Shown here in pieces: positions 12,757-29,639 of a stretch of 51,159 nucleotides of DNA; the first letter of the stretch is position 1; each line of letters starts with the position of its first letter. Location: the NCBI RefSeq assembly GCF_001921205.1, contig NZ_MSIE01000028.1, forward strand, positions 1 to 51,159, given 5' to 3'. The notes under the pieces are model-generated. The model was not told the origin of the DNA. It worked only from the letters and a program-made list of their open reading frames with translations, and searched no databases. This stretch comes from Actinophytocola xanthii. GTDB taxonomy: Bacteria; Actinomycetota; Actinomycetes; Mycobacteriales; Pseudonocardiaceae. Position numbers and translations under genes: made by a program.

Positions 12757-13596
12757 TCACCGCTCACCGCGCAGGGCGCGGGGAAGCGGCGGCGGGCTCA
12801 CCGCGCCGGTGGCGGCCAGGGCCGCGGCCACCCCGGTCCACCTCCCGACCGGAACCTCGACCGCCGGGGTGGCCGGGTCGGTCCCCCGCTCGCGGAGCAG
12901 GCGGCCGGCGCGCTGGTGGGCCACCAGGTCGCCGAGCACGCGCCTGGCCGGGCGGTCCGGCTGCCGGTGGACGGCGCCGAGCAGCGACCACAGCACCGCC
13001 TGGGTCGCGACGTCCAGGCCCGGGCGGCGGCGAATCCGCAGGTGTGCCGCGTCGACCGACGGTGCCGGCCGGAAGCAGCTCGCCGGGATCCGGCGAACCA
13101 GGCGCAGCTCGAAGCGCGCCGTCCACCAGGCCGTCTCCAGGTCGCGGGGGTGTGCGGCGGTGAGTCGCCGGGCGAGCCCCCACTCGCAGACCAGCTCGGC
13201 GCGGGTGAGCCGGGCGGGGACCGGGGTCAGCAGGCGCCGCAGCAGTGTGGTGGACACGGCGAACGGGATGCTCGCCACGACCGCGAACTCCGTGCGGGGC
13301 AGGGGGAGCCGGCGCAGGTCGCCGGGTAGGACGCGAACCAGCGGACGGTCGGCGAACCGACGGCGCAGCACGGCGACGAACGCCTCGTCGCGCTCGACGG
13401 CGATCACCCGGGCGCCGGTGCCGGCCAGGGGCGCGGTGATGGTGCCGGGTCCGGCACCGAAGTCGATCACGAGGTCGCCGGCGCCCAGGCCGGCGCCGCG
13501 GACCAGGCGGTCGATCACGTGGCGGCAGGACAGCAGGTGCACGCCGGAGGAGGACGGGCGGAAGCGGGCGGCGCGGGGCCGCCGGGGGGAAGGCAT
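12757..13596 (-). CDS. Erm-like 23S rRNA (adenine-N6) methyltransferase
   Basis: A 279-residue Rossmann methyltransferase of the KsgA/Erm superfamily. Visible motifs are the SAM-binding VIDFGAGPGTIT (motif I), VIAVERD (motif II), PGDLRRLPLP, and ASIPFAVSTTLLRRLL (motif IV). A C-terminal part with RIPASCFRPAPSVDAAHLRI matches the Erm PxPxV region. Erm enzymes methylate A2058 of 23S rRNA and give macrolide-lincosamide-streptogramin resistance. Two departures are notable: motif IV has SIPF where N-x-P-F/Y is usual, and the N-terminal Q-N/H-F motif reads VHLL. The protein may be a divergent Erm or have another rRNA target. It is preceded by a structured leader with a small upstream frame (13597-13743). 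Confidence 0.82.
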   Translation of the reverse strand: MPSPRRPRAARFRPSSSGVHLLSCRHVIDRLVRGAGLGAGDLVIDFGAGPGTITAPLAGTGARVIAVERDEAFVAVLRRRFADRPLVRVLPGDLRRLPLPRTEFAVVASIPFAVSTTLLRRLLTPVPARLTRAELVCEWGLARRLTAAHPRDLETAWWTARFELRLVRRIPASCFRPAPSVDAAHLRIRRRPGLDVATQAVLWSLLGAVHRQPDRPARRVLGDLVAHQRAGRLLRERGTDPATPAVEVPVGRWTGVAAALAATGAVSPPPLPRALRGER

Positions 13597-13743
13597 GGGA
13601 GAGCCGCTCCAGGCACGAGGTGGTCGTGGGTGCGTGGAGACGGCGACGGCGCCCGGCGAACCGGGTCGACGTTCAGCTCGTGTCTCAGCTCGGTCGGGCC
13701 GTCGCCGTCAGCGACGCCGCAACCTTGCCCAGGTGGCTCCCAT
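13597..13743 (-). promoter_or_regulatory. Candidate ribosome-mediated attenuator of the Erm-like gene
   Basis: The 147-bp leader, read on the minus strand, has in order: an 11-codon frame (13743-13708); a perfect 12-bp long-range stem formed by 13709-13698 and 13650-13639, whose 5' arm overlaps the leader stop codon; an internal hairpin with 5-bp GC stem and UUCG loop (13665-13652); a CACGA/TCGTG hairpin (13628-13614); and a GGAG/CTCC hairpin that would hold the erm ribosome site. This matches the general plan of drug-induced erm leaders, where a stalled ribosome changes the fold. The freed 3' arm could also pair with the ribosome-site region, so the direction of the switch is not settled. 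Confidence 0.55.
13708..13743 (-). CDS. Putative erm leader peptide (11 aa)
   Basis: ATG GGA GCC ACC TGG GCA AGG TTG ... TGA encodes MGATWARLRRR. Residues 7-9 are Arg-Leu-Arg, an example of the +X+ motif at which macrolide-bound ribosomes are known to stall, as in the ErmD leader. A TACGGT lies 7 bp upstream of the ATG, so the mRNA could begin at or near this codon (leaderless). The frame is too short to be proven by sequence alone; its position exactly in front of the 12-bp stem is the main support. Confidence 0.45.
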   Translation of the reverse strand: MGATWARLRRR

Positions 13744-13797
13744 ACCGATCACCGTAGGTGCGCGGGCAACTGAATTAGCGCCCTAAGCTCCCGCCGT

Positions 13798-14850
13798 ATG
13801 CGACGGGTCGACGTGCTGGTCATCGGCGGCGGGATCGCGGGCGTCTCGATCGGCTACGAGCTGGCCGAGCACGCGGACGTGCTGCTCGCCGAGGCCGAGC
13901 CGGCGCTCGCCGCGCACACCACGGGCCGCTCGGCCGCGGTCTACCTCCCCAGCTACGGCGGACCCGTCGTTCGGGCGCTGACCGAGGCGAGCGCCGGGCG
14001 CTACCGCGAGCTCGAGGCCGAGCTGGGCACGCCGCCGCTGCTCTCCCCGCGACCGGTGCTCTGGCTCGCCGCCGACGAGCTCGCCGCCGCCCACCTGGCC
14101 GAGCTGCCGGCCGAGCCGATCAGCCCCGCCCAGGCCCGCGCGCTCTGCCCGGTGCTGCGCGAGGTCCGCGCCGCGGCCCGGGACGACGAGGCCAGCGACA
14201 TCGACGTGATGGCACTGCACCAGGGCTACACGATGGGGCTGCGCCGGCGCGGCGGCGAGGTCCACACCGCGGCGCCGGCCACCGCCCTGCGGCGGGAGGG
14301 CGAGGACTGGCTCGTCGAGCTGGCCACCGGGCCGGTCCTGGCGGCCACCGTGGTGAACGCGGCCGGGGCCTGGGCCGACGTGGTCGCCGCCCGCGCCGGG
14401 GTGCCGCCGGTGGGGCTGCGGCCGCTGCGGCGCACGCTCGCCCTCGCCGACGGGACGCGCCCGGTCGACCCGGCCTGGCCGCTGGTCGCCGACGCCGCCG
14501 ACCGGTTCTACTTCCGCCCCGAGGGCTCGCGGGTGCTGGTCTCCCCCGCCGACGAGAGCCCTGCCGAGCCCTGCGACGCCAGGCCGGACGAGCTCGACGT
14601 CGCACTCGCCCTGGAGCGGGTCAACCAGGCGACGACCCTCGGGCTGCGCACGGTGCACAGCGCCTGGGCGGGGCTGCGCTCGTTCGTCGCCGACCGGGAG
14701 CCGGTCGTCGGGGCGTGGCCGGACCACCCGGGGTTCGTGTTCTTCGCCGGCCAGGGCGGCTTCGGCATCCAGATGGCCCCGGCGCTGGCGCGGCTCGGCG
14801 CCGAGGTCGTCCTCGGCGCCACCGCCCCCGCGGCCGTGTCGCCCCGTTGA
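13798..14850 (+). CDS. FAD-dependent oxidoreductase, DAO family
   Basis: A 350-residue protein with an N-terminal FAD-binding Rossmann motif (VLVIGGGIAGVSIGYELAE) and the DAO-type sequence AAHTTGRSAAVYLPSYGG, and a C-terminal GGFGIQMAPALARLGAEVV flavin-contacting segment. The family oxidises D-amino acids, sarcosine, glycine or related amines and hydroxyacids to imine or keto products; the substrate here is unknown. ATG 13798 starts directly at the nucleotide-binding strand; no ribosome site precedes it, and TAAGCT lies 8 bp upstream, consistent with a leaderless mRNA. It is divergent from the Erm-like gene and shares its promoter region, 54 bp from the possible leader peptide. Confidence 0.85.
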   Translation: MRRVDVLVIGGGIAGVSIGYELAEHADVLLAEAEPALAAHTTGRSAAVYLPSYGGPVVRALTEASAGRYRELEAELGTPPLLSPRPVLWLAADELAAAHLAELPAEPISPAQARALCPVLREVRAAARDDEASDIDVMALHQGYTMGLRRRGGEVHTAAPATALRREGEDWLVELATGPVLAATVVNAAGAWADVVAARAGVPPVGLRPLRRTLALADGTRPVDPAWPLVADAADRFYFRPEGSRVLVSPADESPAEPCDARPDELDVALALERVNQATTLGLRTVHSAWAGLRSFVADREPVVGAWPDHPGFVFFAGQGGFGIQMAPALARLGAEVVLGATAPAAVSPR

Positions 14851-29567: not shown

Positions 29568-29639
29568 TGGGCACAGCAGGATTCGAACCTGCGACCGCTC
29601 GGGTGTAAACCGAGAGCTCTTCCGCTGAGCTATGTGCCC
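29568..29639 (-). tRNA. tRNA-Val (anticodon TAC)
   Basis: The minus strand folds into a complete 72-nt cloverleaf: acceptor GGGCACA/TGTGCCC with discriminator A, D-arm GCTC...GAGC, anticodon stem CTCGG/CCGAG with 7-nt loop TTTACAC (anticodon TAC, Val), 5-nt variable loop and T-arm GCAGG-TTCGAAT-CCTGC. CCA is not encoded. Its 5' end lies 14 bp after the ahpE stop, so it is probably cotranscribed with ahpE and processed. No integrase or duplicated tRNA end is nearby. Confidence 0.96.

Follow-up and report, generated by a model that had tools for sequence, protein, structure and literature searches.

The closest described counterparts of the locus reported here are the leader peptides of inducible erm genes. 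ErmDL carries an Arg-Leu-Arg arrest motif and stalls the ribosome while Leu occupies the P site (PMC8298421), so the stall motif itself is not new. The locus examined here lies in Actinophytocola xanthii (assembly GCF_001921205.1), in a stretch of 51,159 nucleotides, hereafter the window, spanning positions 1 to 51,159 of contig NZ_MSIE01000028.1. It resembles ErmDL in placing a short leader frame with Arg-Leu-Arg before an erm gene, and differs from ErmDL in that the +X+ motif here usually stands two codons before the stop codon, the frame is apparently leaderless and the downstream gene is a distant Erm (PMC8298421). With the ErmCL-ermC attenuator it shares leader stalling and rearranged helices, both of which are proposed here, as well as a hidden ribosome site of the resistance gene; in contrast to ermC, the first hairpin (1:2) is unsupported here, and the position of the ribosome relative to the stop codon may set the exclusion instead (PMC13410324).

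Actinobacterial leader frames, several of them leaderless, have been described as amino-acid leader peptides of Streptomyces lividans (PMC8079986) and as cysteine-rich leaders in mycobacteria (PMC4633059); they are linked to amino-acid metabolism, whereas the present frame carries a drug-arrest motif before an Erm-like gene. Upstream, the locus is similar to WblC/WhiB7 promoters in its box of GAAAWY, 3 bp and a TTG-type element with a TANNNT -10 box, the WblC consensus being given as GAAAWY-3-TKG with -10 TANNNT (PMC7157823). Among 35 erm genes and 43 homologues surveyed elsewhere, uORFs were reported to be scattered and to follow no universal pattern (PMC11264731). No account of the present leaders was found in the literature on actinobacterial erm leaders as judged by titles and the starts of abstracts, subscription papers being mostly outside reach. 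A Streptomyces relative, ermSV, likewise has a leader. Macrolides reportedly induce ermSV (Kamimiya and Weisblum 1997). The leaderless arrangement and this leader family were thus not found described, which is weak evidence of novelty.

A distant Erm-like gene behind a short Arg-Leu-Arg frame

The features of the locus are as follows.

13767..13777, minus strand: TAATTCAGTTG, a weak form of the relatives' box GAAAAYCGGTTG, WblC/WhiB7-like, 10 nt from the -10 box
13751..13756, minus strand: TACGGT, probable -10 box 7 nt upstream of the ATG of the leader (from the sequence and the TANNNT spacing in relatives)
13708..13743, minus strand: leader frame MGATWARLRRR plus stop, 11 codons (from the sequence; kept in relatives)
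13698..13709, minus strand: segment B, begins in the stop codon and pairs with C (perfect 12 bp; shuffles; pair counts)
13639..13650, minus strand: segment C, partner of B; the C:D helix is extended by the 3' end of C (shuffles; pair counts)
13630..13639, minus strand: C', which forms the 5' strand of the helix covering the ribosome site (shuffles; pair counts)
13607..13616, minus strand: segment D, containing GGAG (13610-13607), the Shine-Dalgarno sequence for the Erm-like gene (from the sequence; pair counts)
12757..13596, minus strand: Erm-like rRNA adenine methyltransferase gene, 279 aa (profile matches)

The top NCBIfam match of the product of 12757-13596 is the broad Erm model, at 157.8 bits and under its curated cut-off of 212, a value that two relatives also fall short of (185 and 185.7 bits). 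RrnaAD is the top Pfam match, and among solved structures Erm(38) is the best match by sequence. A KsgA/RsmA identity was considered and rejected, as the protein scores 94.5 bits on the KsgA model against the 171 required and the genome holds a separate KsgA elsewhere, which at 244 bits lies above that cut-off. Since the Erm model is the best match but stays below its cut-off, and a separate KsgA is present, the gene is termed Erm-like; judged by these profile matches it is a distant Erm, with rRNA as its predicted target and a probable role in antibiotic resistance. Erm-like genes are present in 5 of 6 genus, 68 of 390 family and 23 of 394 class genomes, the own genome being counted in each.

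The catalytic motif N-I-P-Y/F reads S-I-P-F in the window's protein, and a simple pattern applied to 93 rows (L013 included) gave S as the first residue in 42 and N in 41, and found no motif in 10. Several Erm-like proteins (L048-L051, L054, L059, L063, L071, L073 and L103-L108) span only about 173-218 residues from the start of the match, their C-terminal part being short or missing; for comparison, the models of Erm(37) and Erm(41) are 179 and 173 positions long.

Upstream of this gene an earlier note on the same DNA had pointed to an 11-codon frame, MGATWARLRRR, which is indeed present on the minus strand from the ATG at 13743 to the TGA at 13708 (ATG GGA GCC ACC TGG GCA AGG TTG CGG CGT CGC TGA). 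Arg7-Leu8-Arg9 is followed by two more Arg codons and the stop, and 111 nt separate the stop from the start of the Erm-like gene.

Recurrence of the leader and its motif in relatives

Whether relatives keep a short frame had been named as a check on this leader, and one was found in the corresponding position in 60 of 70 loci, comprising 68 family loci together with L012 and L014 (L013 is the same record as L051 and was left out of leader counts and folds). A fixed test, drawn up once the first leaders were known, asked for TANNNT 5-8 nt before ATG or GTG, a length of 7-26 codons and Arg-X-Arg near the end; 55 of the 70 loci passed, as against none of their reverse complements and a mean of 0.15 of 70 (at most 1) in 20 dinucleotide shuffles. 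With the -10 condition removed, R[LP]R frames occurred in 52 of 70 loci, compared with 3 reverse complements and 3.7 loci (at most 9) in shuffles. Searching the 70 loci blind to the motif returned 60 short frames behind a -10 box, 55 of which carry Arg/Lys-X-Arg/Lys near their end. The 60 leaders counted below consist of 55 motif-bearing frames, four frames with R-P-W in place of R-X-R (L016, L017, L061 and L069) and L026, included although its start lies further from the -10 box. As the +X+ motif and the -10 box were partly used in choosing these leaders, their counts among the 60 are not independent, and the motif-blind search serves as a check. More than one start is possible in L018, L036, L075 and L076; in L018 and L036 it was set to the one behind the -10 box, in the promoter-spacing count only.

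Within the genus the leaders read MGATWARLRRR, MGMAAMIKKRRR, MGAASLRLRRR, MGASIRLRRR and MSASIRLRRR, and the forms commoner across the family resemble MGTLCRSCVALARLRPRRA. When a short frame behind a -10 box was sought, none was scored as a leader in 10 of the 70 loci (L014, L020-L023, L029, L045, L047, L057 and L077), L014 having a frame behind a -10-like box that lacks +X+. Two genus groups are without the leader, L020-L023 with L029, and L045 with L047 and L057; in the former, the Erm-like gene itself directly follows a -10-like box.

In the codon analysis, which covered 75 leaders and left out L016, L017, L056, L061 and L069, R[LPI]R was present in 73, with Leu as X in 47, Pro in 22 and Ile in 4. 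The motif is encoded by 30 different 9-mers, the codons being CTN or TTG for Leu and CGN or AGG for Arg, and this variety points to the peptide as what is kept. An independent-column model of the R-X-R codons was discarded as a measure of conservation, since column make-up alone keeps the motif in 0.78 of random draws; the argument therefore rests on codon variety and the motif-blind count. Exactly two codons and the stop follow +X+ in 47 of the 60 leaders. The R-P-W leaders stand at three separate places of the tree as drawn, which is a quick tree only, and the group count of the tree tool, with ungrouped rows excluded, gives one change.

Two helices share one segment

All of the secondary structure that had been read from the window's sequence was recovered on the minus strand. 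The perfect 12-bp stem overlapping the leader stop joins 13709-13698 to 13650-13639, its 5' arm starting inside the stop codon, and is accompanied by the UUCG hairpin (CCCGG-TTCG-CCGGG, 13665-13652), the CACGA hairpin (CACGA/TCGTG, 13628-13614) and the GGAG/CTCC helix over the erm ribosome site (13639-13630 with 13616-13607). The Shine-Dalgarno GGAG at 13610-13607 stands 10 nt upstream of the erm ATG at 13596. As observed, the leader, the stems and the ribosome-site helix are real. In many genera B, C and D approximate ACGCAGCGGCTG, CAGTCGCTGCGTCATGAG and CTCATGACGTGGAG, with GGAG as the ribosome site. Segment C is common to the B:C and C:D helices, and C:D covers the erm ribosome site; by comparison with ErmC-type features, C:D matches the helix that hides the Shine-Dalgarno sequence (3:4) and B:C the competing helix (2:3).

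Helix and fold tests were confined to the 51 of 55 loci with a GGAG ribosome site upstream of the gene (L032, L033, L037 and L044 having none). Of the 51, 35 had a B:C helix and 24 a C:D helix that no more than 5 of 100 shuffles equalled; in all 51 the longest B helix begins within 5 nt of the end of the stop on either side, the search window having been set there. The main alignment count used 38 rows, excluding 13 rows of two divergent groups. In these rows 409 of 456 B:C cells (90%) are paired, as against 23-57% for slid partners and at most 87.5% for permuted rows; over all 51 rows the count is 499 of 597. For C:D, 364 of 434 cells are paired in the 38 rows, with slid partners at 24-52%. 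Pairs changed on both sides number 6 of 12 for B:C (slid 3-5) and 4 of 12 for C:D (slid 1-4), barely exceeding the slid controls, so that this count by itself adds little. In the own genus 95% of B:C cells are paired (11 of 500 shuffles as high), two pairs having changed on both sides; C:D there, with 87.5% of cells paired, did not go beyond column shuffles (166 of 500). Conservation of the stop-codon stem, also proposed as a check, is thus seen both in the 38 rows and in the own genus, where B:C stays paired through sequence change.

A first hairpin, A:B, fared differently. In the window 92 of 100 synonymous recodings were as strong, and over the 51 loci 10 reached 5% or better against recoding, which is weak overall. 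At the gathering score no Rfam family matched the leader, the only match in the window being a tRNA at 29568-29639.

Modelled consequences of stalling

Stalling was modelled with the ribosome front assumed to lie 16 nt beyond the P-site codon and with the +X+ that comes closest to standing two codons from the end; in 44 of 51 loci the front would then extend 1 nt past the stop, and we infer that a terminating ribosome, standing further on, would cover most of B. Masking the stalled ribosome raised mean B-to-C pairing over the 51 loci from 0.36 to 0.80 and mean GGAG exposure from 0.19 to 0.33. The mean modelled cost of opening the ribosome site fell from 7.2 kcal/mol with B taken to 4.0 kcal/mol with B free, the site becoming easier to open by more than 1 kcal/mol in 40 of 51 loci and harder by more than 1 in one. 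Shuffled B segments (50 loci, L042 being excluded as too long; 12 replicates) gave 0.1-0.7 kcal/mol compared with 3.1 for real B, and eased the site by more than 1 kcal/mol in 11-19 loci versus 38.

In the window itself, freeing B lowers the opening cost from 8.1 to 6.5 kcal/mol, a small gain, and under the simple stalled model the site remains closed (unpaired 0.26 free, 0.02 stalled). In its genus this final step is weak: four of five loci are eased by more than 1 kcal/mol, but only one by more than 3. The earlier proposal that stalling at Arg7-Leu8-Arg9 changes the fold therefore finds support in the modelled folds of relatives, by masking and by freeing B, and for the window it extends to a small release of the ribosome site.

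Promoter and WblC/WhiB7-like box

In 57 of 60 leaders the start lies 6-8 nt behind a TANNNT box, starts being partly chosen for TANNNT, and at this distance the mRNA is probably leaderless, with transcription predicted to begin at or adjoining the ATG. Most WblC-activated starts in Streptomyces coelicolor lie 7-8 bp past the -10 box (PMC7157823), a spacing that would place the transcription start at the leader ATG. A scan of 13560-13900 for the sigma-70 consensus found no match.

Upstream of the leader -10 boxes stands GAAAAYCGGTTGC, resembling the WblC box. Among the 60 leaders, an AT-rich box followed after 3 bp by a TTG-type -35 has 25 strict and 46 loose matches, the window being a loose match only. 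Of the 46 leaders with a box, 44 have 10-11 nt from its TTG to the -10 box (7-8 bp between -35 and -10) and the other two 21 nt (18 bp), so that the 44 fall outside the 16-19 bp expected between -35 and -10 of WblC/WhiB7 promoters. Unlike in those promoters, the distance from box to -10 is hence 10-11 bp shorter in 44 of 46 (PMC7157823). The AT-hook WhiB7-like gene of the own genome has its box with the TTG 21 nt from the -10 box, at a spacing of 18 bp read by eye.

The box of the erm leaders thus stands one helical turn nearer the -10 box than usual (10-11 as against about 21 nt). In the own genome no exact WblC box with canonical spacing was found and one with short spacing was, while a looser pattern gave four sites, including one at the whiB7-like gene. 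At L111 (C3:23944 of the own genome) a box, AAAACCGGTTGC, lies 34 nt upstream of the ATG of a 256-aa frame; in erm leaders with a clear box the corresponding distance is 33-35 nt in 19 of 22.

Leaders in a second family

Leaders with R[LPI]R, such as MGATNFSAVAYWRIRRHVTA, were also found in 20 of 22 class-level loci (the own one excluded), with a single frame found motif-blind. In all 20 (L089-L108) exactly five codons follow +X+, and the leaders often end in Val-Thr-Ala. The motif-blind search at class level found no leader frame in L110, and in L109 a frame near the gene start was not scored as a leader. These 20 loci cluster with a Micromonosporaceae record in the quick tree, and the second family is accordingly taken to be Micromonosporaceae, an assignment that we infer from this placement. 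The B:C test was positive in only 2 of 20, no RNA partner of the leader end being found with confidence. Among the rows of this family, for which a somewhat different box pattern was used, the TTG lies 21 nt from the -10 box in 11 of 21, and 10 showed no box.

Proposed switch and alternative explanations

We consider it likely that the locus is a translational attenuator that senses macrolide-like drugs through a leaderless +X+ erm leader. An attenuator of the macrolide type had been suggested from the window's sequence, and the suggestion is strengthened by the conserved Arg-X-Arg frame, the conserved stop-codon stem and the modelled fold shift in relatives. As judged from the -10 box, transcription would start at the leader ATG and ribosomes would load on a leaderless mRNA. 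Without drug, the ribosome would reach the stop and its front would cover B, so that C would stay with D and the erm ribosome site would be hidden. With drug in the tunnel, the ribosome would halt at Arg-X-Arg, X occupying the P site, and its front would end near the stop; B, left free, would pair with C, the C:D helix would be shortened and the Erm-like methyltransferase would be translated. As A:B is unsupported in the window, our preferred model has B kept from C by the terminating ribosome instead of by a first hairpin. Comparison among relatives shows conservation of the frame, of Arg-X-Arg and of the spacing between motif and stop, together with pairing of B to C and of C to D, and the easing of the erm ribosome site is a prediction of the folding model only.

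An attenuator of transcription, in which C:D or B:C would be a terminator helix removed by stalling on the leader, would suit the mutual exclusion of the two helices equally well, and whiB7/wblC and several ABC-F genes are described as being under such leader-controlled termination (PMC10727445, PMC12421871). A terminator scan of 13560-13900 nevertheless found no terminator-like site, only 1 of 51 loci has five or more T in a row after the stop, and a GGAG ribosome site precedes the gene in 51 of 55, all of which make this explanation unlikely; actinobacterial terminators may be without a T run. It is more improbable still that the leader answers to scarce Arg-tRNA, or to any slowed ribosome, rather than to a macrolide. 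Several Arg codons do end many leaders, and Streptomyces has leaderless amino-acid leader peptides (PMC8079986), but the recurring unit is R-X-R with X as Leu, Pro or Ile (47, 22 and 4 of 73), known as a macrolide/ketolide motif (PMC8298421), and the controlled gene is an Erm-like methyltransferase. We give least credence, and very little, to the view that the leader merely feeds ribosomes to the erm gene or arose neutrally as a by-product of leaderless transcription from its promoter, a WhiB7-like activator alone being the regulator: conservation of R-X-R, of the spacing between motif and stop, and of both helices, B:C and C:D, would then be unexpected, even though a WblC/WhiB7-like box lies upstream of 46 of 60 leaders by the loose pattern and erm(41) and Erm(O)-type genes belong to WblC/WhiB7 regulons (PMC10727445, PMC7157823).

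Beyond the translational attenuator at this locus, we tentatively propose, with slightly more doubt than belief, that these leaders form a widespread new class of drug sensor in two actinobacterial families, characterised by a leaderless +X+ leader, the stop distance as a ruler, no first hairpin and a WhiB7-like box. The ruler would be two codons after +X+ in most Pseudonocardiaceae leaders and five in all 20 of the other family, such that a ribosome halted at Arg-X-Arg would leave B free and one at the stop would cover it. With the WhiB7-like box one helical turn closer to the -10 box, a single locus might respond to drug stress at two levels.

The arrangement recurs in many soil bacteria. 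It places Erm-like genes on actinobacterial chromosomes under a conserved, probably ribosome-sensing switch, which would represent an environmental counterpart, and a possible source, of clinical erm leaders. The roughly 80 natural leaders, mostly with the same motif and with a near-fixed stop distance per family, offer a ready set, R-P-W variants included, for defining the peptide features behind drug-dependent arrest, and also for asking whether leaderless initiation works under macrolides.

The divergent neighbour

The erm leader shares its upstream region with a divergent FAD-dependent oxidoreductase gene (13798-14850, plus strand), where TAAGCT stands 8 nt upstream of the ATG (13784-13798); judging by this arrangement, the oxidoreductase mRNA may be leaderless too. 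The -10 boxes of the two transcription units lie back to back, with about 28 bp between them.
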